DNA of 64,000 bases from Caldilineaceae bacterium SB0661_bin_32 (lineage in GTDB: Bacteria; Chloroflexota; Anaerolineae; Caldilineales; Caldilineaceae), in assembly GCA_009841235.1 (NCBI GenBank), contig VXMH01000076.1, forward strand, positions 62,001 through 126,000, given 5' to 3'. Positions 1,597-27,416 of the stretch are shown in pieces. Under the pieces are notes generated by a model. The model saw only the letters and a program-made list of their open reading frames with translations. It searched no databases and was not told where the DNA came from. Numbering within the stretch: position 1 is the first letter of the stretch; every line of letters begins with the position of its first letter. The position numbers were made by a program, and so were the translations under genes.

Positions 1597-3078
1597 ATGC
1601 GACTGGCTGCCGGTTATATCTTGCAAGAAGCAAACACCTTTTCACCACTTGAGACCACACTCGATGATTTCCGAGCGGACCACCTCTGCTTGGGGGACGA
1701 GATTTTGCAACGGTTTCGTGGCACAAACACGGAAATGGCCGGCTTCATCGATGCTGCTCAAGCGGAGGGGGTCGAATTTTTGCCTATTATTGGGGCCCGG
1801 GCTATCTCTTCTGGACGGCTTACCCATGAGGCTTACAATTTTATCAAGACCAACCTCCTGGCCGGTCTGCAAGAGGCCGGTCAGTTGGACGGGATCTTAC
1901 TGGCTCTGCATGGTTCTATGGCCGTGGAGGAACTTGATGATCCTGAGGGTGATTTGCTGGCTGCCGCCCGTGACCTGGTAGGAGAGGATCTGCCGCTGGT
2001 GGCTAGCCTGGACATGCATGCCAACATCACCCGGCTTATGATAAGTTCTGCTGACGCCTTGGTGGGCTACCGTACCCACCCCCACACGGACCAGCACGAC
2101 ACCGGCCAGCGAGCGGCCAGTATTCTCTTTTCAATGTCAAAGGGCCAGCTTCGGCCTACAGTAGCCTTTCGAAAGGTGCCCGTAATCACGTACCCGGAGC
2201 GGATGCCGACCAGCATCAAGGGGCCAATGGCCGAGTTGGTGGCTCGCGCCAAGGAGCTGGAGAAGCAACCAGGGGTGGTTTCCATCTCCGTCTTCCCTGT
2301 GCAGCCCTGGTTGGATGTGGAGGAGATGGGGTCTACGATGGTGGTGGTCACAAACAATGATCCTGCCCTGGCCCAAGGGTTGGCGGACGAATTGGGCCAG
2401 ATGCTATGGGAGCGGCGGCAGCAGTTCAAAGTGCCATTATATTCATTGGCCGATGCGATTGAGCGGGCTCTTCAGACAGAGGGCCCGGTAATACTTTCCT
2501 ACGCCAGTGATAACATCAGTGGAGGCTCGCCGGGAGATAGTACCCTCGCGCTTCAAGCTCTGGTAGAGCAAAAGATAGAGGGGCGAGCTTTACTAACTCT
2601 GGTGGATTCTCAGGCGGTGGCTCAGGCTATTGAGGCAGGAGTCGGTCAGAAAGTGACCCTGGAAGTCGGGGCAAAAATCGATCAGGTCTACAGTCAGCCC
2701 GTGCCGGTGACCGGTATTGTGCGGCTTATTTCCGACGGCCAATTTACCTATAAAGGCCCTCTATATACCGGGCTAAAGGCCAACATGGGGCGAACGGTGG
2801 TGCTTCAGTCAGGAAGTATCTTCCTAGTGCTGAGCGAACGCGCCATATCCACCTTTGACCCGGAGCTTTACCGCAGCGTTGGCCTTGAACCTAGCGAGGC
2901 CAAGATCGTCGTGGTTCGGGAGAACGGGGCTTTTCGGGCCGCGTATACCGAGATCATGACGGAAGCCCTACCCTTAGACACGCCTGGCTTCAGCACCTCC
3001 AATCTTAATTTGCTGCCCTTCAGGCGGGTCCCTCGCCCCCTGTATCCGCTAGACCGCGACTTTTCCTGGACTCCCTAG
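1597..3078 (+). CDS. M81 family metallopeptidase (MlrC-like)
   Basis: 493 aa, related to microcystinase C (MlrC), a zinc enzyme that cleaves linearised peptide products. Visible family marks: N-terminal QEANTFSP (10-17), LHGSM (104-108), a D-x-H pair in SLDMHANIT (Asp139, His141) and HPHTD (161-165), which contain likely metal ligands; the C-terminal half is the MlrC_C-type domain. AAGGAG lies just before the ATG. It is the first of three M81 genes here and sits in a + strand run with an aminotransferase, phosphotriesterase homologues and oligopeptide permeases, which suggests hydrolysis of an imported amide or peptide-like compound. The substrate is not predictable. Confidence 0.88.
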   Translation: MRLAAGYILQEANTFSPLETTLDDFRADHLCLGDEILQRFRGTNTEMAGFIDAAQAEGVEFLPIIGARAISSGRLTHEAYNFIKTNLLAGLQEAGQLDGILLALHGSMAVEELDDPEGDLLAAARDLVGEDLPLVASLDMHANITRLMISSADALVGYRTHPHTDQHDTGQRAASILFSMSKGQLRPTVAFRKVPVITYPERMPTSIKGPMAELVARAKELEKQPGVVSISVFPVQPWLDVEEMGSTMVVVTNNDPALAQGLADELGQMLWERRQQFKVPLYSLADAIERALQTEGPVILSYASDNISGGSPGDSTLALQALVEQKIEGRALLTLVDSQAVAQAIEAGVGQKVTLEVGAKIDQVYSQPVPVTGIVRLISDGQFTYKGPLYTGLKANMGRTVVLQSGSIFLVLSERAISTFDPELYRSVGLEPSEAKIVVVRENGAFRAAYTEIMTEALPLDTPGFSTSNLNLLPFRRVPRPLYPLDRDFSWTP

Positions 3079-10523: not shown

Positions 10524-12056
10524 TTAGCACCGGTCCATATCGCCCGGGCTTATCTCAAAGTCATCCAGCGGCCAGATGGGCCGCCGGATCTTCTCGAACG
10601 GAAACTTGCTGAAGTTGAAGCTGAAGACACCGCCGGCATCGGGGTAGAGCAGGCCGCGGGACGGTGGCTCAAAGTCAGCGCGCATGTGGTTGAAGGACTT
10701 GCTGACCAGCACATTCAGCTCCTCAAAGCGGATGCCGAAAAGTTTGAGCTGCTCGCGGTCATGGAGCTGGCTGGGGAACGGATTGACAATGACACCGACA
10801 CCACCGATTTCCAGCAATGCGCTTTCTCCCAGGTCTCCTGGCTGCCCCTGCATAAAAGGCCCCTTGTGTATGAACTTGCCATCGGACAGCGCCTTGACAA
10901 TGGCCGCGCCGCTAACCGGTCCACCGCCATAGCGCGGATCGCATTTGCCGCCGAGTTCGACCTCGATCTGCGCGCCGACGCCCCCCGCATGGGCCTGCTC
11001 CACGGCCTCGGCATCGAACAACGGACCGAACACCGCGCCCGGCGTGCCCCGCTCGATAAGCGCCGAAAGCATCGCTGTCGCGTCGCCATAAGCACCTGAG
11101 TACGGGCCGTCAGTGAAATCACCTAGCAGAAAGGGGCGCGGATCATTGGCGGTTTGTTCCACCGCGTCCAGCGCCTCATCAATGCTCACAATATCGATGG
11201 TCAGCACGTCACGGGTACGCCAGATTTCTGCGCCAAACTCGTCAAGATAGTCATTCACCCGCTCAGACAGGCCGTCCATCACGAGCACGGCACTCGTCCC
11301 GGTCCAGGGCTGATCGCAAAAGGGATAGGCAGGCATAAAGCTCGCGTCGAGCAGCTGCGGGTCTTCAGCCTGAATCACTTCTGCGCGCTTGAGCAAGGTA
11401 AACATGGGCGCATGCGGAACCGTCGTGCGTCCGTGATCGATGCCGAACAGCACGGGCGGATGGATCGAGTGGCATTGCGGTTGGATTTCCCCGCGCAACG
11501 TGCGCGCGAGCAGCTTGGCGGTGCGGAACGCCGTCTGCCGCACGTCGATGTGGGGCGTCGTGTGGAAGCCGCAGATGATGTCGCAGTCGCGCACGAACTG
11601 CGGCGAGAGGTTGCTGTGCAGGTCCAGCGACGCCGCAATCGGCACGCGGCGGCCGACGATCCGCCTGATCCGCGCGACGAACTCGCCTACCGGGTCGTCC
11701 AGATGCTCACAGGCCATGCCGCCATGCAGTGGCAGCAGGATTCCGTCGAACGGAGCTTCATCGCGCAGCTGGCGTTCGATGCGCGCCCACAGCGTTTCGA
11801 AGGCGTGCTCGGTCACACTGCCCCACGGCCAGGCAAAAGCGCAGACGCCGGTGACCAGCTGCCAGCCTTCGGAATCGGCTACCTCGAGATAGCCGCCGAA
11901 CCAGAGGTCGCCTTCGCGGAAGCGCTCGAGGCTCTCGCCCTCCTGCACGAAGTAAAGACCTTTGTCGGTAAAGGCTTCAAGTGTGGTGGGATACTTGTTA
12001 AAGTCATGGGTTTCCGTTGCGATTCCGCACATGAAAATGCGTTTCTGGACAGACAT
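10524..12056 (-). CDS. M81 family metallopeptidase (MlrC-like), divergent copy
   Basis: 510 aa, the most divergent of the three M81 proteins here. The N-terminus carries ATETHDFNKYP where the others have ExNTFSP, followed by LHGGM, the D-x-H pair in SLDLHSN and TPHID. AGGAGAAA lies about 6 bases before the ATG at 12056. It lies on the - strand downstream of a phytanoyl-CoA-dioxygenase-like gene and of a binding-protein fragment. Presumed zinc amidase or peptidase; substrate unknown. High GC and codon use are closer to cassette A than to the 290-8444 island. Confidence 0.85.
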   Translation of the reverse strand: MSVQKRIFMCGIATETHDFNKYPTTLEAFTDKGLYFVQEGESLERFREGDLWFGGYLEVADSEGWQLVTGVCAFAWPWGSVTEHAFETLWARIERQLRDEAPFDGILLPLHGGMACEHLDDPVGEFVARIRRIVGRRVPIAASLDLHSNLSPQFVRDCDIICGFHTTPHIDVRQTAFRTAKLLARTLRGEIQPQCHSIHPPVLFGIDHGRTTVPHAPMFTLLKRAEVIQAEDPQLLDASFMPAYPFCDQPWTGTSAVLVMDGLSERVNDYLDEFGAEIWRTRDVLTIDIVSIDEALDAVEQTANDPRPFLLGDFTDGPYSGAYGDATAMLSALIERGTPGAVFGPLFDAEAVEQAHAGGVGAQIEVELGGKCDPRYGGGPVSGAAIVKALSDGKFIHKGPFMQGQPGDLGESALLEIGGVGVIVNPFPSQLHDREQLKLFGIRFEELNVLVSKSFNHMRADFEPPSRGLLYPDAGGVFSFNFSKFPFEKIRRPIWPLDDFEISPGDMDRC

Positions 12057-12281: not shown

Positions 12282-13166
12282 TTAGGTTCGGAACCCTCTT
12301 ACCATTAGCCCGCGCTGTGCGTTGGTTTTTCGGGCCTCTTGTGCTTGTTTTTCAGCCTCCACCCGGTTCGCTACTGTAAACCCCCTGATCGTCACATAGT
12401 CATCGGGACGGCGATAGCGGTTGATGAACACCTGCCGTGGTTTGTCTGAAAAGTTGGGCTTGGAGCCGTGCACGGTCCTCACATGGAAGAATATCGCGTC
12501 GCCGGCCTGGCCCTCTACAGGTATCGCCGCTTCCCAGGGCCATTCATCCTCGTCTAGGCCCAGGTGTGAGAAGGTATCGATGTGCTGGAGCTGACCTATG
12601 CGGTGAGAACCAGGCACCACGTGCAGCGCGCCTCTTTGCACATCCGTATCCACGACATAGTTGAGGATCGCAACCGGACCTTCGTATTTGTGCTCGAAAT
12701 AGGCCGAGTCCTGGTGCAGGATCTTGGGAAAACCGCCCACCGGCTCTTTCACCAGGCTCTGGCCTTGACCGAACAGCTCAATGTTCGGACCCAAGATGGC
12801 CTCAACAATGTCCAATGCCTTGGCATCAAGCGCTGCCTGGAGAAATGCACCGCTGGTATAGTAATCGATACCCACAACATACACCTGTTTGTCGCGCTCA
12901 TAACCCTCCGGTGCAGGGATGAATAACGATCCGTTGGGTGTACGCCAGCCATCAGGGGCTTTTTCCGCCTGGTCAAGCTGACTGATGGCGATATCGAGGG
13001 TCCGCATGATGTCGTTATACATTGCGTCAATGTACGCGTTCATGAGACTACGCACCACGAGACAACCGTGTTCGCGGTAGATAGCGGCCGCCTGTTGTAG
13101 ATCAAGGTCGGCGGCAAAAACCTCAATGTCTGAGATGCTGGCCCCCAGTTGATTTGTTGGTTTCAT
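12282..13166 (-). CDS. phytanoyl-CoA dioxygenase (PhyH) family Fe(II)/2-oxoglutarate oxygenase
   Basis: 294 aa from the ATG at 13166, chosen because AAGGAG stands 10 bases upstream; the frame stays open further upstream but without family similarity. Seen: HQD in ILHQDSAYFEH (His-x-Asp of the facial triad), the distal His in RTVHGSKPN, and an Arg (RQVFINRYR) that should bind 2-oxoglutarate. Members hydroxylate acyl-CoAs, phosphonates, halogenated or secondary metabolites. It diverges from the amidase gene at 13548. The substrate cannot be inferred. Confidence 0.85.
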   Translation of the reverse strand: MKPTNQLGASISDIEVFAADLDLQQAAAIYREHGCLVVRSLMNAYIDAMYNDIMRTLDIAISQLDQAEKAPDGWRTPNGSLFIPAPEGYERDKQVYVVGIDYYTSGAFLQAALDAKALDIVEAILGPNIELFGQGQSLVKEPVGGFPKILHQDSAYFEHKYEGPVAILNYVVDTDVQRGALHVVPGSHRIGQLQHIDTFSHLGLDEDEWPWEAAIPVEGQAGDAIFFHVRTVHGSKPNFSDKPRQVFINRYRRPDDYVTIRGFTVANRVEAEKQAQEARKTNAQRGLMVRGFRT

Positions 13167-13547
13167 TTTACTCGGACTCCTTGAGCGCGATCTTGAGGTG
13201 TTTTTGATTCGTCTCTCCTCCAAGGTCGTAGGGCACCGCGTTGGTGAATCACCTTTGGGCAAGTCGGCTCCGGCAGGCTTGCGCCGCGCTGTATTCCTGC
13301 TACAATTCCCCAATCACACTTAGGTATTGTAGTCCAAAATGCTATTGGTGCAACCCCCTGGCGAGCCGACTTGGATCATGAGAAGCCCAAGCGTAAACGT
13401 CCTGGACTTCAGTTAGCTCAATGGGTTTCTCCACGGAGAAGCCTATTATCGCGCAGATAGGCAAAAGACTCTGCCTTTCATCCCCTGGTTAGAGCCGAAG
13501 GGGTTTCCCGGCTTCTCCCATAGCCACATAGTGAGGAGATTTGTCAG
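13167..13547. promoter_or_regulatory. divergent intergenic region with a small hairpin
   Basis: 381 bp between two divergently transcribed genes, so it should hold both promoters. GGGTTTCTCC (13423-13432) and GGAGAAGCC (13435-13443) form an inverted repeat, and 13505-13519 carries an inverted copy of the GGGAGAAGCCGGGAA repeat also found near 18.8 and 20.0 kb. No consensus -35/-10 pair was recognised. Confidence 0.4.
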
Positions 13548-14936
13548 ATGTCTGAACTGATTTACGCATCAGCTACAGCCGTGGCCAAAGCCATACGCAC
13601 GAAAGAGGTTTCATCAGAAGAGGTCGTGAAAGCATACGTGCAGCGCATAAGAGACGTCAATCCGCAATTGAACGCCGTTGTCCGACTGGATGCTGAAGGG
13701 GCCTTGGTAGAAGCCCGCCGGTCAGATGAAGAATTGGCAAAGGGCGATCTGCGAGGTCCCCTGCACGGCGTTCCAATGACGATCAAGGACGCCCTGGACA
13801 CAGCCGGGGTGATCAGCAGCGGGGGCACGCAGGGGAGAAGCTCCTTTGTACCAGAGCAAGACGCCACGGTGGTGGCCCGCCTGCGCGCCGCAGGCGCGAT
13901 TCTGTTGGGCAAGACCAACACACCGGAACTGACGCTCGATTTCGAGACGGATAACCTGGTCTACGGTCGCACCAACAACCCTTACGACGTGTCGTGTACC
14001 TGTGGCGGCAGCAGCGGAGGAGCGGCGGCGATCATCGCCGCGGGTGGGATACCCTTTGATATCGGAAGCGACACCGGCGGGAGCATTCGTTTGCCATCGC
14101 ACGTTTGCGGCACAGCCGGCATTCGACCCACGTCCGGACGGGTTCCACGGACCGGCCACATTCTTCCCCCTGCAGGCCTTGATGAGTCTTTTACGCAGAT
14201 CGGTCCTATGGCGCGTTACGTCGAAGACTTGATCACGCTCCTGCCCATCATCGCTGGCGTTGACTGGCGCGACCCGGCGATCGTTCCCATGCCATTGGCT
14301 GACCCGAACCAAGTGAACCTCACCGATCTGCGCGCTGCCTTTTACACGGACAATGGCATCGTAACGCCCACGCCGGAAATTATGGCCGCCGTGGAAGCAG
14401 CCGCATCCGCTTTGGAAAAAGCCGGGGCAGCCGTAGAAGAAGCGCGGCCACCCGGCATGGAGAAAACGATGGACCTCCTGCTTGGCTGCCAGTTAGGAGA
14501 TGGAGGTGCAGGTTTCAAGCGACTCCTCGACCTGTACGGCACCAAGGAACCACATCCGGGGATCGCGAACCTGATAGCTATGGGCCAAGAATCGAAAGTG
14601 ACGTCCGACACTTTGAGTGGCTTGGTTTTCCAGATTGACCAGTTTCGAAGTGAAATGCTCTCCTTTATGGAAGCGTACGATGTCGTGGTCTGCCCGGTAC
14701 TCCCCTTTCCGGCTCCACCTCACGGAGCGTCGAGTATCCAGTTGCCCGTGTTTGCCTACACCGCCACCTACAACTTGACCGGCTGGCCGGCAGCCGTCGT
14801 CCGCGTTAGCACGTCTCCCGAGGGGTTGCCCATCGGCGCCCAGGTGGTGGCGCGTCCGTGGCGTGAGGACGTGGCGCTGGCAGCCGTCAAGCATCTGGAG
14901 AAGCTGTTTGGCGGCTGGCAGCGCCCTCCGATGTAG
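13548..14936 (+). CDS. amidase signature (AS) family amidohydrolase
   Basis: 462 aa. The catalytic triad of the family is visible: Lys80 in MTIKDALDT, the cis-Ser Ser155 in CGGSSGG and the nucleophile Ser179 in SDTGGSIRLPS. GTGAGGAGA lies about 11 bases before the ATG. Such enzymes hydrolyse carboxamides, including peptide amides, carbamoyl compounds and Glu-tRNA. There are no gatB or gatC genes nearby, so it is a free-standing catabolic amidase rather than GatA. Context (dioxygenase, desaturase-Rieske, oligopeptide-binding protein) suggests breakdown of an imported amide. Confidence 0.9.
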   Translation: MSELIYASATAVAKAIRTKEVSSEEVVKAYVQRIRDVNPQLNAVVRLDAEGALVEARRSDEELAKGDLRGPLHGVPMTIKDALDTAGVISSGGTQGRSSFVPEQDATVVARLRAAGAILLGKTNTPELTLDFETDNLVYGRTNNPYDVSCTCGGSSGGAAAIIAAGGIPFDIGSDTGGSIRLPSHVCGTAGIRPTSGRVPRTGHILPPAGLDESFTQIGPMARYVEDLITLLPIIAGVDWRDPAIVPMPLADPNQVNLTDLRAAFYTDNGIVTPTPEIMAAVEAAASALEKAGAAVEEARPPGMEKTMDLLLGCQLGDGGAGFKRLLDLYGTKEPHPGIANLIAMGQESKVTSDTLSGLVFQIDQFRSEMLSFMEAYDVVVCPVLPFPAPPHGASSIQLPVFAYTATYNLTGWPAAVVRVSTSPEGLPIGAQVVARPWREDVALAAVKHLEKLFGGWQRPPM

Positions 14937-15291: not shown

Positions 15292-15334
15292 ACATGTTGT
15301 ACGGATCCGATTTTGATCGTGCGAAGGAGAAAAA

Positions 15335-16876
15335 TTGGCGATACGCAACTTCCCCGAACGGGACTATCGTCTGATCAGCACATACAAAACGGATATCCCC
15401 CTCGACGATGACGCCATCGAAGAGAAGGTCGAACAAGCGTGGTGGTCACCCGATATCCCCCGCGACCAACTCAAAGCACTGATGCAGCGCACCAACCGCT
15501 ACGGTCTCCTCGATTTTGGCCTGTGGATCATCCTGCTTGGGGTGAGCGGCTACCTGGCCTGGATCTCCTGGGGCACCTGGTGGGCGATTCTCGCCTTTTT
15601 CATATATGGAACGCTCTACTCCTCATCCGACGCGCGATGGCACGAGTGTGGCCATGGCACCGTGTTTCGCACCCGCTGGCTAAACGAGCTCTTTTACCAC
15701 ATCAGCTCCTTCATGACCATACGTGAAGCTAACCTCTGGCGTTGGAGCCATGCCCGCCATCATACCAACACCTATCTCGTGGGTTATGACCCCGAAATCC
15801 AGGTTCAACGGCCAGCCGATCTGCTCATCTTTGCGATGGACTTTTTCTTTCTGCGGGGCGTTCTAGAAGTACAACGTGTGATCAGACATGCGGCCGGGCA
15901 AATCGGCGACGATGTCCGTAGCTTTGTACCCGCCTCTGAGCTACCCAAAGTGATCTGGACGAGCCGGATTTATCTAGCTATTGTGGCGGCTTTTGCAGTG
16001 TGGGCGGTTGCGGTCGGCAGCTTTCTGCCGATGATGTTCGTGTGGCTTCCGCGCTTTTACGGTGCATTTGTGGAGCAAATGCTCGCCGTAACGCAACACG
16101 CCGGTTTGGGTGAAGATACGTATGACCACCGCGAAAATACGCGCACGATCTATCTGAATCCGGTGTTCCGCTATCTGTATATGAACATGAATTATCATAT
16201 AGAACACCACGTCATACCCATGGTTCCCTACCATGCTTTGGCTGACTTGCACGAGTTGATGAAATCACAGACACCGCCGCCGTATCGGAGCCTGTGGCAA
16301 GCCTACAAGGAGATGATCCCGGCCTTGTACAAGCAAGCGACCAAAGACCCGAATTATTACATAAAACGCCCTATTCCTGACGCCGGCACAACGGTTGAAG
16401 CGTTCGATATCCCCATAGGCGGCGTTGTCACGTCAAGCAGCGCGTTAAGCGACGAACCGGTAGCCTACGTGAGAGACGGCACCAGTGTACCCGCTGAGTA
16501 TGCGGACACATCGTTTGAAGAGATCCGCACAGTAACGGCTGTAAACGCAGATGCCAAAGAAAGCAGTTGGATCGAGGTCTGTAACGTTTCAGATATCGAA
16601 GTGGAAGACGTGCTTGGCTTTGACTACAATGGCCACACGTACGCCATTTATCGTTTGGGGCCTCACGCATTCTTTGCCAGCGATGGTTTATGCACCCATG
16701 AAGAAACCGAATTAGCCGCGGGTTTTGTCTTCGATGGCTGTATCGAATGCCCACTGCATCTAGGGCGTTTCGATATCGAAACAGGCAAAGCATTGTCTGC
16801 ACCCGTCACTGAAGACTTAAGAACATACCCTGTTGAGCTGCGCGGCGATCAGGTATTCATCCAGGTAGAAGGGTAA
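15335..16876 (+). CDS. membrane desaturase/hydroxylase fused to a Rieske ferredoxin (MocD-MocE-like)
   Basis: 513 aa from a TTG start with AAGGAGA just upstream. Residues ~60-340 are a fatty-acid-desaturase-type di-iron membrane domain: hydrophobic spans, then the three histidine boxes HECGH, HARHH and HIEHH. Residues ~410-510 are a Rieske [2Fe-2S] domain with CTH and CPLH ligand pairs about 16 residues apart. In rhizobia, MocD (hydrocarbon oxygenase) and MocE (ferredoxin) are separate proteins of rhizopine catabolism; here electron donor and oxygenase are one chain. No reductase (MocF-like) gene is seen in the window. Substrate unknown; demethylation or hydroxylation is inferred. Confidence 0.88.
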   Translation: MAIRNFPERDYRLISTYKTDIPLDDDAIEEKVEQAWWSPDIPRDQLKALMQRTNRYGLLDFGLWIILLGVSGYLAWISWGTWWAILAFFIYGTLYSSSDARWHECGHGTVFRTRWLNELFYHISSFMTIREANLWRWSHARHHTNTYLVGYDPEIQVQRPADLLIFAMDFFFLRGVLEVQRVIRHAAGQIGDDVRSFVPASELPKVIWTSRIYLAIVAAFAVWAVAVGSFLPMMFVWLPRFYGAFVEQMLAVTQHAGLGEDTYDHRENTRTIYLNPVFRYLYMNMNYHIEHHVIPMVPYHALADLHELMKSQTPPPYRSLWQAYKEMIPALYKQATKDPNYYIKRPIPDAGTTVEAFDIPIGGVVTSSSALSDEPVAYVRDGTSVPAEYADTSFEEIRTVTAVNADAKESSWIEVCNVSDIEVEDVLGFDYNGHTYAIYRLGPHAFFASDGLCTHEETELAAGFVFDGCIECPLHLGRFDIETGKALSAPVTEDLRTYPVELRGDQVFIQVEG

Positions 16877-17127: not shown

Positions 17128-18756
17128 ATGTCTAACACAATTTGGCGAAAGTCGTTGGTGTTGCTGGCTATTAGCGTTCTGATGTTGGCGGCCTGCGTCG
17201 TTCAGCAGCCGACGGTCGCTGAAGAAGGGATGGTCGAGGAAGAGGCGGCGTCCACGGGGCCACCTCAGGGTGGCACACTCCGTCTGATGGGCCACCACGA
17301 CGCCTTCAGCCTCAGCCCTGGACTCGGCGCCATCCCAAGCGCCATCCGGCCGGCGCTCATGCAAATCCACAACGGGCTGGTGGAGATAGACGCTTCAAAT
17401 GCGGTCGTGCCGGTGCTGGCCGAGTCCTACGATATCTCCGAAGACGGCCTGACCTACACTTTCCCGCTGCGTGAGGGCGTCAAGTTTCACAATGGCGCTG
17501 ATTTCACGTGCAAGGACGTCAAGTATACGTACGACTTCTACCGTGACCCGGAAAACGCGGCGCCAGTGGTTGGCGTCTTGTCAAAAATTGATTCCGTCGA
17601 GTGTGTGGATGACTATACCGCCGTCATCAACATGGTGCAGGTAGATGCCGCCTTTCTCGTATTAGGGGCAATCCTGCGCATTGTACAATCGGACTATCAC
17701 GCGGAGGTGGGCGAGGAAGTGTACGCGACGGCCCCCATCGGTACCGGCTCCTTTAAGCTCGTGGAGTGGCACCCGTCGCAGTTCACGCTGCTGGAGGCGT
17801 TCGACGACCACTTCCGCGGGCGGCCCTATCTCGACTTTTTGCGGGTAGACGTCGTGCCCGAGGCTTCGGTGCGCACCATCGCCCTTGAGTCGGGCGACGC
17901 CGACGGGACCGCCTGGCCATTGCTGATGGAGGACAACGTGCGTCTGGCCAACGACCCGAGGTTTACGAGCATTTCACAAGCTGGGGCGGGGCCCTTTCTC
18001 ATTCCGCTCAACAACACCATACCGCAGTTGTCGGACAAGCGGGTGCGCCAGGCATTGTACTGGGGCCTGGACCGCCAAAGGATCATCGACGACCTCTGGT
18101 TCGGCCAGGCTCAGGTAGCCCATTCTAACCTGTCCCCCATATACCCGGACTACTACAACCCGGACATCCCACGGTATGAGTTCGACCCGGAAAAGGCCAT
18201 GGAGCTGCTGGACGAGGCAGGTTGGGTGGACGAGGATGGCGACGGGGTACGCGAGAAGGAGGGTGAGAGGCTCTCTTTCAATGTCCATGTGGGCGCCGGT
18301 AACCAGCAGTTTATCCCGGTCATCGAGTTAGCGCAGCAGTTGTGGGCCGACATAGGCGTCGAGATCTTCCTCGTGGAGACGCCCGTGGCGGCTATCCTGG
18401 ATGGTATGCGCAAGTGCGAGATGGATGCCGCTATGATCGCCTTTGAACACGGCGCTATAGACCCGGATCCCCACTGGATGATGCACTCGGAAGGCGCCAA
18501 CAACTTCCCCTGCATCTCAAACCCGAAACTGGACGCGCTGATCGAGGAGGGACTCTCCTACGCCTCTGTGGAGCAGCGCCAGCCCATCTACAACGAGATC
18601 CAGGCGATGATTATGGACGAGGCGCCGGTGATAGAACTGTTTTTCACCCATTGGCCCGCCATCTTCAACGCCAAGGTCAAAGGCCAGTCGCTCGACGCGG
18701 TTGACACCAATAGGCTCTGGCGCGAGATCCATTTATGGTACATTGAGGAGGAGTAG
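17128..18756 (+). CDS. ABC transporter substrate-binding lipoprotein, family 5 (oligopeptide type)
   Basis: 542 aa. The N-terminus is a lipoprotein signal with a lipobox ending LMLAAC at about residue 23, a Glu/Ala-rich linker, then the SBP_bac_5 fold: LAESYDISEDGLTYTF, LREGVKFHNGADF, and IGTGSFKLVEW. Binds peptides or other solutes outside the membrane and delivers them to DppB/DppC. It resembles the truncated binding protein at 62784 (both contain the YRxPxNxAPxVG region and HAEVGEE), so it likely belongs to permease cassette A at 8637-10508 although 6.6 kb away. The terminator hairpin at 18819 follows. Confidence 0.92.
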   Translation: MSNTIWRKSLVLLAISVLMLAACVVQQPTVAEEGMVEEEAASTGPPQGGTLRLMGHHDAFSLSPGLGAIPSAIRPALMQIHNGLVEIDASNAVVPVLAESYDISEDGLTYTFPLREGVKFHNGADFTCKDVKYTYDFYRDPENAAPVVGVLSKIDSVECVDDYTAVINMVQVDAAFLVLGAILRIVQSDYHAEVGEEVYATAPIGTGSFKLVEWHPSQFTLLEAFDDHFRGRPYLDFLRVDVVPEASVRTIALESGDADGTAWPLLMEDNVRLANDPRFTSISQAGAGPFLIPLNNTIPQLSDKRVRQALYWGLDRQRIIDDLWFGQAQVAHSNLSPIYPDYYNPDIPRYEFDPEKAMELLDEAGWVDEDGDGVREKEGERLSFNVHVGAGNQQFIPVIELAQQLWADIGVEIFLVETPVAAILDGMRKCEMDAAMIAFEHGAIDPDPHWMMHSEGANNFPCISNPKLDALIEEGLSYASVEQRQPIYNEIQAMIMDEAPVIELFFTHWPAIFNAKVKGQSLDAVDTNRLWREIHLWYIEEE

Positions 18757-23605: not shown

Positions 23606-23635
23606 AGAATGAATGATGAAAGGAGGCGACGGGTC

Positions 23636-25108
23636 ATGAAACTGTTTACTACCTTTCTAGGAACCGAAACCAACACATTCTCGCCAATTCCCACCGGCCA
23701 TGCCAATTTCGCCGAGACGTTTCTGGTGCGCGGCGGGGATCACGGAGATGAGCCGTCCGTATATTCCCGACCATTGGCGATTGCTCGAGAGCGGGCACAA
23801 CTACGTGGCTGGTCAGTCGTAGAGAGTCTCGCCACTTTCGCCCAGCCCGCTGGCCTGACCGTACGTGCGGTGTGTGAATCGTTCCGGGACGAGATCCTGG
23901 ATGATCTGCGCGCCGCGTTGCCGGTGGATATGGTACTGCTCAACCTGCATGGCGCCATGGTCGCTGATGGTTACGACGACTGCGAAGGGGACCTGATAGC
24001 ACGGGTCCGGGAGATTGTCGGACCGGATGTGCCGATTGGCGTGGAGCTTGACCCGCATTGCCACCTATCGCAAAAGATGGTGAACAACGCCACGGCACTA
24101 ATCACTTTCAAAGAATACCCGCACATCGACGCTGCCGAGCGTGCCGAGGAGTTATTCGATATAATCGCCAGCGCCGCCGAGGGCAAGATCAGGCCTGCGA
24201 TATCTGTGTTTGACTGCCGCATGATTGGCATCTACCACACGACCAGGGAGCCCATGCGGAGCTATGTGGACCGGATCAAGGGGTTAGAGGGGAGGGATGG
24301 GGTGCTGTCGATCTCAGTGGCGCACGGTTTCCCCTGGGGCGACGTGCCGGACATGGGTACCAAGATCCTGGTCGTTACCGACGGCCGTCCTGAGTACGGG
24401 GAGCGCCTGGCCCAGGAACTGGGACGTGAGCTTTTTGAGATGCGCGAAGCACTGCGTCCCAACTTTCTGAGCATCGACGAGGGATTGAATCGAGCGTTGG
24501 AGATCGAGCGTTCTCCAGTTGTGATGGCCGATACTGCGGACAATGCCGGTGGCGGCGCACCCAGTGACTCCACCTTCGTCTTGAAGGCCCTGTTGGAGCG
24601 CGGCATCGGGGAGGCAGCGCTGGCCTGCATATGGGACCCGATTGCGGTGTCGCTAGCCATGGAGGCCGGGGTGGGCGCGCAACTCGATCTGCGGCTCGGC
24701 GGGAAGCTGGGGCCGATGTCCGGTGACCCGCTAGACCTAAGCGTGAAGGTGACTGGGGTGAAGCCCAACGCCACCCAGTCCTTCGGTCCTGAGGATGGCA
24801 GAGCGACAGTGCGGTTGGGCGATACGGTAGCCGTACACGTAAAGGGCATCGACATCGTTCTCAACTCGATCCGCGAGCAGGTCTTTAGCCCGGAATGCTT
24901 TAGCACGGTGGGGATCGACCCGCGGCAGAAGCACATCCTGGTGGTCAAGGGGAGCCAGCACTTCTATGCAGCCTTTGCCCCGCTAGCCGCTGAGGTGCTC
25001 TACCTGGCAACGCCCGGAGCGATAAACCCTGACCTGACCAAGTTCCCCTTTAAGCATATTAATCGCAACATATGGCCCCTGGTTGAGGACCCATTCTCTC
25101 AGCCGTAA
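23636..25108 (+). CDS. M81 family metallopeptidase (MlrC-like), third copy
   Basis: 490 aa from the ATG at 23636, chosen because AAAGGAGG lies 9 bases upstream; an ATG at 23609 is in frame but lacks such a site. Seen: LGTETNTFSP at the N-terminus, LHGAM, D-x-H in ELDPHCHLS, EYPHID, and a C-terminal MlrC_C domain with a DNAGGGAPSDS block. Closer to the 1597 copy than to the 10524 copy. Placed behind an LLM oxidoreductase and a ThDP enzyme; it may release a keto acid or amine for them, but this is conjecture. Confidence 0.87.
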   Translation: MKLFTTFLGTETNTFSPIPTGHANFAETFLVRGGDHGDEPSVYSRPLAIARERAQLRGWSVVESLATFAQPAGLTVRAVCESFRDEILDDLRAALPVDMVLLNLHGAMVADGYDDCEGDLIARVREIVGPDVPIGVELDPHCHLSQKMVNNATALITFKEYPHIDAAERAEELFDIIASAAEGKIRPAISVFDCRMIGIYHTTREPMRSYVDRIKGLEGRDGVLSISVAHGFPWGDVPDMGTKILVVTDGRPEYGERLAQELGRELFEMREALRPNFLSIDEGLNRALEIERSPVVMADTADNAGGGAPSDSTFVLKALLERGIGEAALACIWDPIAVSLAMEAGVGAQLDLRLGGKLGPMSGDPLDLSVKVTGVKPNATQSFGPEDGRATVRLGDTVAVHVKGIDIVLNSIREQVFSPECFSTVGIDPRQKHILVVKGSQHFYAAFAPLAAEVLYLATPGAINPDLTKFPFKHINRNIWPLVEDPFSQP

Positions 25109-25241: not shown

Positions 25242-26306
25242 ATGGACAAGGTGAAAATCGCGATCGTAGGATGCGGAAACATCTCGCAGCTCAACGTCCC
25301 CGGTTACCTGCAGCACCCTAACTGCGAGGTCGTCGCGCTGTGCGACAATGCCCCCGGCCGGGCCGAAGCTCGGGCGAAGCAGTGGGGCATCTCGCCAAGG
25401 ATCTACACGGACTACGAGCAGGTCCTCAACGACCCCAATGTCGATGCCGTCGAGCTACTGACGCCACCTCAACACCACGCGATCATGACGGTCGACGGTC
25501 TGAACGCCGGCAAGCACGTGTCCTGCCAGAAGCCGATGTGCACGTCTGTCGCGGAGGCGGACTTGATGGTAGCGGCGGCCAGGAGGGCCAAGACGAAGTT
25601 CCGGATGACCGAGAACTGCATCTATTACCCACCCATCCTCAAGGCCAAGGAGCTTCTCGACGCCGGAGCCATAGGCGAGCCGTCTCTGGTCCGGTTTCAC
25701 ACCGTAATCGGTGGACAGGCTGAGGGGAGCGTGGTGGACACAGACCCTGAAGCGTTCGTCTGGCGCAACGATCCCACGCTGAGCCCCTTGGGCATCGTGT
25801 TTGAAGACGGTGTGCACAAATTCGCGACCGCCATGAAGTGGGTCGGAGATATCGAGAAGGTCTTCGGGATTGTCGGCAAGACCCAGGAGCACTTCATGGA
25901 GATGCCGTCGGCGCTCATCTGGAAGTTCGAAGGAATGGACTGTTTGGGGATGTGCGACTACGTCTACGCGCCGCACATGACGATTCGCACGAAGTACTTC
26001 GCGGGCGACGACTACATGGAGATACACGGCTCTAAGGGCTCCATCCACGTGACGCGGTGCATTGCTGAACTGCTGGATTTTCCCCCAGTCCTGCTGATAA
26101 AAGGGACCGAGACGGAAGGCATCGAGGTTCCCTCGGACTTCATCGAGGGGTTCAACGGAGCTGCCAGCGACTTCATTGACAGCATCATCGAGGATAGACA
26201 GCCCGACCTCGACGCCGAGTTCGCCAAGAAGACGATCCAGGTGGCAATGGCCACCTACGAGGCGGCCAGGACGGAAGGTCCGGCTTATCCCAGGGCGATG
26301 GTCTAG
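25242..26306 (+). CDS. Gfo/Idh/MocA family oxidoreductase, tandem copy 1
   Basis: 354 aa NAD(P)-dependent dehydrogenase. Rossmann start KIAIVGCGNISQLNVPGY, the cofactor-side EKP-type motif present as CQKPMC with Glu replaced by Gln, and an alpha/beta C-terminal domain from about residue 125. AAAGGTAGG precedes the ATG. Acts on sugars, cyclitols or related compounds. It is one of two almost identical neighbours. The Q in place of E in EKP is worth noting because that Lys-containing motif is catalytic and Lys is kept. Confidence 0.9.
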   Translation: MDKVKIAIVGCGNISQLNVPGYLQHPNCEVVALCDNAPGRAEARAKQWGISPRIYTDYEQVLNDPNVDAVELLTPPQHHAIMTVDGLNAGKHVSCQKPMCTSVAEADLMVAAARRAKTKFRMTENCIYYPPILKAKELLDAGAIGEPSLVRFHTVIGGQAEGSVVDTDPEAFVWRNDPTLSPLGIVFEDGVHKFATAMKWVGDIEKVFGIVGKTQEHFMEMPSALIWKFEGMDCLGMCDYVYAPHMTIRTKYFAGDDYMEIHGSKGSIHVTRCIAELLDFPPVLLIKGTETEGIEVPSDFIEGFNGAASDFIDSIIEDRQPDLDAEFAKKTIQVAMATYEAARTEGPAYPRAMV

Positions 26307-26351
26307 AGATCGCCGGCTGGGAAATACCGGCTAGATAGAAAGGTAGGCGCC

Positions 26352-27416
26352 ATGGACAAGGTGAGAATCGCGATCGTAGGATGCGGAAACATCTCGCAGC
26401 TCAACGTCCCCGGTTACCTGCAGCACCCTAACTGCGAGGTCGTCGCGCTGTGCGACAATGCCCCCGGCCGGGCCGAAGCTCGGGCGAAGCAGTGGGGCAT
26501 CTCGCCAAGGATCTACACGGACTACGAGCAGGTCCTCAACGACCCCAATGTCGATGCCGTCGAGCTACTGACGCCACCTCAACACCACGCGATCATGACG
26601 GTCGACGGTCTGAACGCCGGCAAGCACGTGTCCTGCCAGAAGCCGATGTGCACGTCTGTCGCGGAGGCGGACTTGATGGTAGCGGCGGCCAGGAGGGCCA
26701 AGACGAAGTTCCGGATGACCGAGAACTGCATCTATTACCCACCCATCCTCAAGGCCAAGGAGCTTCTCGACGCCGGAGCCATAGGCGAGCCGTCTCTGGT
26801 CCGGTTTCACACCGTAATCGGTGGACAGGCTGAGGGGAGCGTGGTGGACACAGACCCTGAAGCGTTCGTCTGGCGCAACGATCCCACGCTGAGCCCCTTG
26901 GGCATCGTGTTTGAAGACGGTGTGCACAAATTCGCGACCGCCATGAAGTGGGTCGGAGATATCGAGAAGGTCTTCGGGATTGTCGGCAAGACCCAGGAGC
27001 ACTTCATGGAGATGCCGTCGGCGCTCATCTGGAAGTTCGAAGGAATGGACTGTTTGGGGATGTGCGACTACGTCTACGCGCCGCACATGACGATTCGCAC
27101 GAAGTACTTCGCGGGCGACGACTACATGGAGATACACGGCTCTAAGGGCTCCATCCACGTGACGCGGTGCATTGCTGAACTGCTGGATTTTCCCCCAGTC
27201 CTGCTGATAAAAGGGACCGAGACGGAAGGCATCGAGGTTCCCTCGGACTTCATCGAGGGGTTCAACGGAGCTGCCAGCGACTTCATTGACAGCATCATCG
27301 AGGATAGACAGCCCGACCTCGACGCCGAGTTCGCCAAGAAGACGATCCAGGTGGCGATGGCCACCTACGAGGCGGCCAGGACGGAAGGTCCGGCTTATCC
27401 TAGGGCGATGGTCTAG
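26352..27416 (+). CDS. Gfo/Idh/MocA family oxidoreductase, tandem copy 2
   Basis: 354 aa, differing from copy 1 only at residue 5 (Arg instead of Lys) as far as I can see. The same AAAGGTAGGCGCC leader precedes the ATG, so both copies should be translated. Same motifs: GCGNISQ and CQKPMC. Intact reading frames in both copies argue against decay; gene-dosage increase or a very recent event are the simplest explanations. Converges with the 2-oxo acid dehydrogenase operon, 82 bp away. Confidence 0.9.
   Translation: MDKVRIAIVGCGNISQLNVPGYLQHPNCEVVALCDNAPGRAEARAKQWGISPRIYTDYEQVLNDPNVDAVELLTPPQHHAIMTVDGLNAGKHVSCQKPMCTSVAEADLMVAAARRAKTKFRMTENCIYYPPILKAKELLDAGAIGEPSLVRFHTVIGGQAEGSVVDTDPEAFVWRNDPTLSPLGIVFEDGVHKFATAMKWVGDIEKVFGIVGKTQEHFMEMPSALIWKFEGMDCLGMCDYVYAPHMTIRTKYFAGDDYMEIHGSKGSIHVTRCIAELLDFPPVLLIKGTETEGIEVPSDFIEGFNGAASDFIDSIIEDRQPDLDAEFAKKTIQVAMATYEAARTEGPAYPRAMV

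Follow-up and report, generated by a model that had tools for sequence, protein, structure and literature searches.

The stretch analysed (hereafter the window) comprises 64,000 nucleotides of contig VXMH01000076.1 of Caldilineaceae bacterium SB0661_bin_32, and the feature under study is a single open reading frame that begins with a TTG codon at position 15335 and runs for 513 codons without interruption to its stop at 16876. Please refer to Table 1 for the coordinates of the gene, its parts and its immediate neighbours.

Table 1. Features of the window at and around the fusion gene (positions are those of the window).
Feature	Position	Strand	Evidence or remark
PhyH (phytanoyl-CoA dioxygenase-like) gene, conserved neighbour	12282..13313	-	PF05721, 86.8 bits
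Amidase gene, directly upstream of the fusion	13548..14936	+	PF01425; retained in three orthologous loci
AAGGAG ribosome-binding-like site 5' of the TTG start	15323..15334	+	sequence 'gaaggagaaaaa TTG'; also in orthologue L013
Di-iron hydroxylase-Rieske ferredoxin fusion, MocD-MocE type	15335..16876	+	513 aa; open frame, Pfam FA_desaturase and Rieske, fused orthologues at 94-96%
Membrane di-iron (FA_desaturase/MocD-like) domain	15437..16384	+	aa about 35-350; three histidine boxes plus H255 and H265
Inter-domain linker	16385..16558	+	aa 351-408, 58 residues; predicted disordered
Rieske [2Fe-2S] ferredoxin domain, MocE-like	16559..16873	+	aa 409-513; PF00355
Substrate-binding protein of a peptide/nickel-type ABC transporter, directly downstream	17128..18756	+	PF00496; conserved

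Domain assignment of the window protein was carried out using Pfam, which placed FA_desaturase (PF00487) at residues 81-322 (111.5 bits, cut-off 29.7) and Rieske (PF00355) at residues 411-499 (56.4 bits, cut-off 20.3). The three histidine boxes (H103-x3-H107, H139-x2-HH143 and H288-x2-HH292) together with H255 and H265 provide ten histidines that are invariant across all 61 aligned di-iron domains. In the Rieske domain, the ligands C453-x-H455 and C472-x2-H475 are likewise the same in each of the 60 sequences aligned. The domain search and the invariant ligands bear out the original prediction of three histidine boxes followed by a Rieske domain in one protein of 513 residues. The label 'Rieske oxygenase' used there is misleading, since no mononuclear-iron Rieske-oxygenase catalytic domain was detected in the protein by Pfam and the Rieske domain is C-terminal. 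The top NCBIfam model for the Rieske part was TIGR02377 (MocE) with 110.8 bits, which is below the cut-off of 136.15, as are the scores of two other fusions (126.7 for the Verrucomicrobiota protein of locus L090 and 128.1 for a paralogue), a free MocE scoring 178.9 bits. The nearest solved relative of the Rieske part is the Rieske ferredoxin of naphthalene dioxygenase (2qpz; E 2.7e-22, Z 18.2). The chain stops after the Rieske domain, without a reductase domain in cis, and a search of PHROGs gave no match.

Structure prediction using AlphaFold2, in a model without metals, yielded two well-folded domains and a disordered linker at about residues 351-409, with a pTM of 0.80. The pLDDT was mostly above 85 in the di-iron domain and below 50 in the linker at residues 351-397 and 399-409. 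The Foldseek ranking consisted mostly of Rieske ferredoxins, matches to the di-iron part emerging in a second comparison; by fold, the di-iron part is similar to 8xks chain K (Z 20.3) and AlkB (8sbb_A, Z 11.8), and the Rieske part to ferredoxins of dioxygenases (Z about 18). A structural alignment with 8f6t (AlkB-AlkG) covers both domains, as given by its end points, from which the placing of the domains is not readable.

Fused orthologues with 94-96% identity were identified in three other Caldilineaceae genomes (L012-L014); in two of these genomes the gene lies on a single-contig chromosome, and 1539 bases align across the three without a stop or an indel. The dN/dS ratio was 0.07-0.13 in the di-iron part and 0.06-0.23 in the Rieske part, indicating purifying selection on both domains; in the 58-residue linker it was 0.5-0.9, a sign of relaxed selection, yet the exact linker length is retained. 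These data bear directly on the explanation that two adjacent genes were merged by a frameshift or an assembly error, which the original prediction had named as grounds for its refutation. Pseudomonadota pairs often lie in one frame with a single stop between them, in a ranking that favours such cases, but a fusion of identical length in three further genomes, its low dN/dS and the presence of the fusion in about 20 Chloroflexota sequences in all exclude such a join, to which we attach a negligible probability.

The neighbours conserved in all three orthologous loci comprise ABC permeases, an M81 protein, PhyH, the amidase and the substrate-binding protein, and the two long orthologous loci also keep an aldo/keto reductase, a luciferase-like oxidoreductase, a TPP enzyme, a second M81 protein and a GFO/IDH/MocA protein. 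A PhyH gene lies within 6 kb of 11 of the 15 Chloroflexota fusion loci (L012-L014, L017, L019-L022, L025, L010 and the window) and of none of the 63 split or six other fused loci. Two GFO/IDH/MocA genes lie in tandem 8-10 kb downstream of the window fusion (25242-27416); their proteins are identical at 353 of 354 positions, and the pair reflects a very recent duplication or gene conversion, unless it is an assembly repeat. Two copies are likewise present in orthologue L014, and the sequence of L013 ends soon past the first. Three M81/MlrC-like metallopeptidase-family genes (1597-3078, 10524-12056 and 23609-25108) are found in one catabolic region of the window, which also holds the amidase, two phosphotriesterase-family proteins and a class III aminotransferase.

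The same genome carries three fusions in total, the other two being arranged in tandem on contig C61 (3149-6018) beside moc-like genes, with 61% and 58% identity to the window protein. The C61 cluster also encodes sugar-type ABC permeases, PhyH, an SDR, a GFO/IDH/MocA dehydrogenase, a GH32/43-like protein and a xylose-isomerase-like TIM barrel, a gene content similar to that of moc/inositol-type catabolic clusters. In several Caldilineaceae loci, GFO/IDH/MocA, TIM-barrel and SDR genes again accompany both tandem fusions or a single one. The pair as such recurs in L017, L020 and L022; in L025, the Rieske part of the second copy was not detected. The window cluster, with its peptide-type transporter, amidase, M81 proteins and PhyH, is unlike the sugar-type one in which the paralogues lie, so the window gene may also have a different substrate from theirs.

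Fused and split architectures were compared across 80 named loci, and neighbours within 6 kb were counted for 63 split, 15 Chloroflexota fusion and six other fused loci. The survey established that the fusion is not unique to the window, as it occurs in both Chloroflexota and Verrucomicrobiota: among the 80 loci, one chain was found in every locus of these two phyla, and the loci of Pseudomonadota and Bacillota have the domains on two genes. Among 398 sampled Pseudomonadota genomes, each match spanning both domains was interrupted by at least one stop, and a close relative was present in only 2 of the 301 sampled Chloroflexota genomes. The rhizobial genes are separate, as originally stated: in Rhizobium etli the order is LacI regulator, MocD, MocE and FAD reductase, all distinct, with a TIM-barrel gene adjoining the regulator. 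Of the 63 split loci, 56 have a MocF-type reductase within 6 kb, as against none of the 15 Chloroflexota fusion loci and none of the six other fused loci.

In the tree of di-iron domains, the window domain nests among MocD relatives whose genes in Pseudomonadota directly precede those of a MocE-family ferredoxin and a MocF-type reductase, which upholds the original description of the protein as a MocD-MocE fusion. The Chloroflexota clade to which it belongs (100/98) is sister to split Paraburkholderia MocD (100/100) and separate from the Verrucomicrobiota group. A single clade of all fusions was rejected (AU test, p = 3.9e-8), the constraint costing 87 log units. Because the fused forms reject monophyly in this test, fusion would have arisen at least twice, or both fusion and fission would have occurred; the count derives from an unrooted tree, in which repeated fusion and fusion followed by fission look alike.

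The original prediction had also noted that a reductase was needed and not seen. This agrees with the present searches, in which no MocF-type reductase was found within 6 kb of the window fusion and Reductase_C (PF14759), taken as the mark of MocF-like reductases, was found neither in this genome nor in three complete Caldilineaceae genomes. The best matches to MocF elsewhere in the genome were dihydrolipoyl dehydrogenase and another disulfide-reductase-like protein, and these candidates were rejected. A genome search for an NqrF-like reductase returned only a PyrK-like protein, encoded on contig C58: the sole PF00175 (NAD_binding_1) protein of the genome resembles the electron-transfer subunit of dihydroorotate dehydrogenase, and the three complete Caldilineaceae genomes have one NAD_binding_1 protein each. 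An apparent MocF near L018 was discarded as a weak match (2e-7) to a long protein whose start is like a sarcosine oxidase subunit. No dedicated reductase was thus found for the Chloroflexota fusions in these searches, and that of the window protein must act in trans.

Most of the sampled Verrucomicrobiota fusions also include a reductase domain, the frame extending about 280 residues past the Rieske domain to give a chain of about 755 residues. A total of 25 uninterrupted desaturase-Rieske-reductase reading frames were found in 21 of 288 sampled Verrucomicrobiota genomes; named loci with proteins of this kind are L038:9522-11789, L084:9926-12217, L090:9953-12211 and L091:9938-12220. Of four such proteins examined using Pfam, all contained the oxidoreductase NAD-binding domain and two of these also FAD_binding_6. 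The third domain matches NqrF, subunit F of the Na+-translocating NADH:quinone reductase, both in the curated NCBI model (328 bits, cut-off 295, over model positions 123-403 only) and in a solved structure (7qty, 9e-81); NqrF positions 1-122 are absent, and the Rieske domain stands in their place. Two reductase types are encountered, a MocF-type flavoprotein in trans versus an NqrF-type domain in cis. Judged from its domain content, the three-domain protein, which unites an oxygenase, an electron carrier and an NAD(P)H reductase, is predicted to be a self-sufficient enzyme. Two fusions that group with the three-domain forms by tree, from Akkermansiaceae (L073) and from the Chloroflexota genome G283 (L011), have two domains only, for which a probable loss of the third domain is the simplest reading. 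At L073 (8508-8674) there is no reductase domain and little space for one ahead of the next gene.

Taken with the gene order of the split operons, these domain arrangements lead us to assign the window protein, with a probability of roughly 0.8, as a membrane-bound, O2-dependent di-iron C-H hydroxylase that carries its Rieske ferredoxin covalently at the C terminus; its electron route, activity and substrate are proposed as follows. Electrons from NAD(P)H would pass to a separate flavin reductase, from there to the Rieske [2Fe-2S] cluster and on to the di-iron site held by the histidine boxes, where O2 would be activated and the substrate then hydroxylated. The fused Rieske domain would stand where the free donor stands, because the split relatives form a MocD-MocE-MocF unit in which MocF is near 56 of 63 loci, and the succession from NADH through flavin reductase, Rieske cluster and di-iron site to O2 is indicated by the order of the split operons together with that of the three-domain chains. 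The flexible linker of about 58 residues may allow the ferredoxin domain to move back and forth, meeting the reductase at one end and the di-iron site at the other. In the Verrucomicrobiota homologues, with the NqrF-type FAD/NADH domain in cis, the enzyme should run on NADH alone.

MocD acts in the conversion of 3-O-methyl-scyllo-inosamine to scyllo-inosamine (PMC2593844), a step that we infer to be an O-demethylation via hydroxylation of the methyl group. For the window protein, the likeliest substrate would be either a small polar compound, for example one with a polyol or O-methyl group, or an intermediate from the surrounding nitrogen-rich catabolic cluster. A narrower version of this assignment makes it a single-chain enzyme that O-demethylates or hydroxylates polyols or cyclitols, whether methylated or plain, as in rhizopine catabolism. 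It draws on the sugar-type C61 cluster beside the paralogues, the frequency of TIM-barrel genes within 6 kb (41 of 63 split, 7 of 15 Chloroflexota and 4 of 6 other fused loci), the reported adjacency of mocDEF to pfam01261 genes (PMC3538637) and the two GFO/IDH/MocA genes downstream of the window fusion, but the window gene itself sits among an amidase, M81 proteins and a peptide/nickel-type transporter, with no TIM-barrel gene within 6 kb. These neighbours do not especially favour a rhizopine-like substrate, and we hold the narrower version only tentatively; a polyol, cyclitol or O-methyl compound is what we would first propose for the paralogues, with a polyol-type substrate plausible for the C61 pair, but we propose it with less conviction for the window gene and, given its neighbours, do not commit to a substrate there. 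That the protein is instead a membrane-chain lipid desaturase or alkane-type hydroxylase with its ferredoxin donor in cis would suit its FA_desaturase family and its predicted fold, which is like those of membrane desaturases and AlkB. This appears unlikely, as its closest relatives by tree are MocD genes of catabolic operons, the NCBIfam desaturase models score far under their cut-off (29.9 versus 500) and the adjacent genes are of uptake and catabolic types.

Among known systems, the di-iron hydroxylase assigned here is closest in kind to MocD/MocE/MocF of Rhizobium and Sinorhizobium, with about 45% identity in the di-iron domain, about 52-55% in the Rieske domain and the same order D-E; there, three genes include a MocF-type FAD reductase, whereas the window form has D and E in one chain and no MocF was found with it. 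The AlkB-rubredoxin fusion of Fontimonas thermophila (8f6t) and ferr_ferrR_AlkB are likewise membrane di-iron hydroxylases with fused carriers (PMC8918992, PMC10113152), but their carrier is a rubredoxin, or an N-terminal reductase plus ferredoxin, in place of a C-terminal Rieske domain, and the Verrucomicrobiota form differs further by its additional C-terminal NqrF-type reductase. Among fatty acid desaturases, those fused to cytochrome b5 share the desaturase superfamily and a donor in cis, but their donor contains haem and they act on eukaryotic lipids. A 2022 review describes both the AlkB-rubredoxin fusion and an N-terminal reductase-ferredoxin-AlkB fusion, and states, citing a 2001 source, that desaturases fused to a ferredoxin had not been found (PMC8918992). 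The open-access literature searched yielded no report of a desaturase-Rieske fusion, which is weak evidence of absence, and domain databases may already list the pair. We regard the window protein as a genuinely new form of the MocD/E/F kind, to which the series of split, two-domain and three-domain forms adds most worth.

What makes membrane di-iron hydroxylases difficult to use is that each requires separate electron-transfer proteins. A ferredoxin in cis, along with relatives that include the reductase, offers a direct test of electron delivery to the di-iron site, and the three-domain relatives are possible NADH-only catalysts. That fusion seemingly happened more than once suggests that fixation of the donor is favoured. 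We place even odds on the joint proposal that MocD-type oxygenases became single-chain at least twice independently and that in Verrucomicrobiota the desaturase, Rieske and NqrF domains make up a membrane di-iron hydroxylase that is fully self-sufficient, driven by NADH and active on polyols or O-methyl sugars, an enzyme class without a described member. The analysis also corrects an annotation: Verrucomicrobiota proteins pass the NqrF cut-off, yet their first 460 residues are oxygenase and ferredoxin. The protein of L090, the one scanned with the NCBI NqrF model, passes it and would be given the name NqrF.
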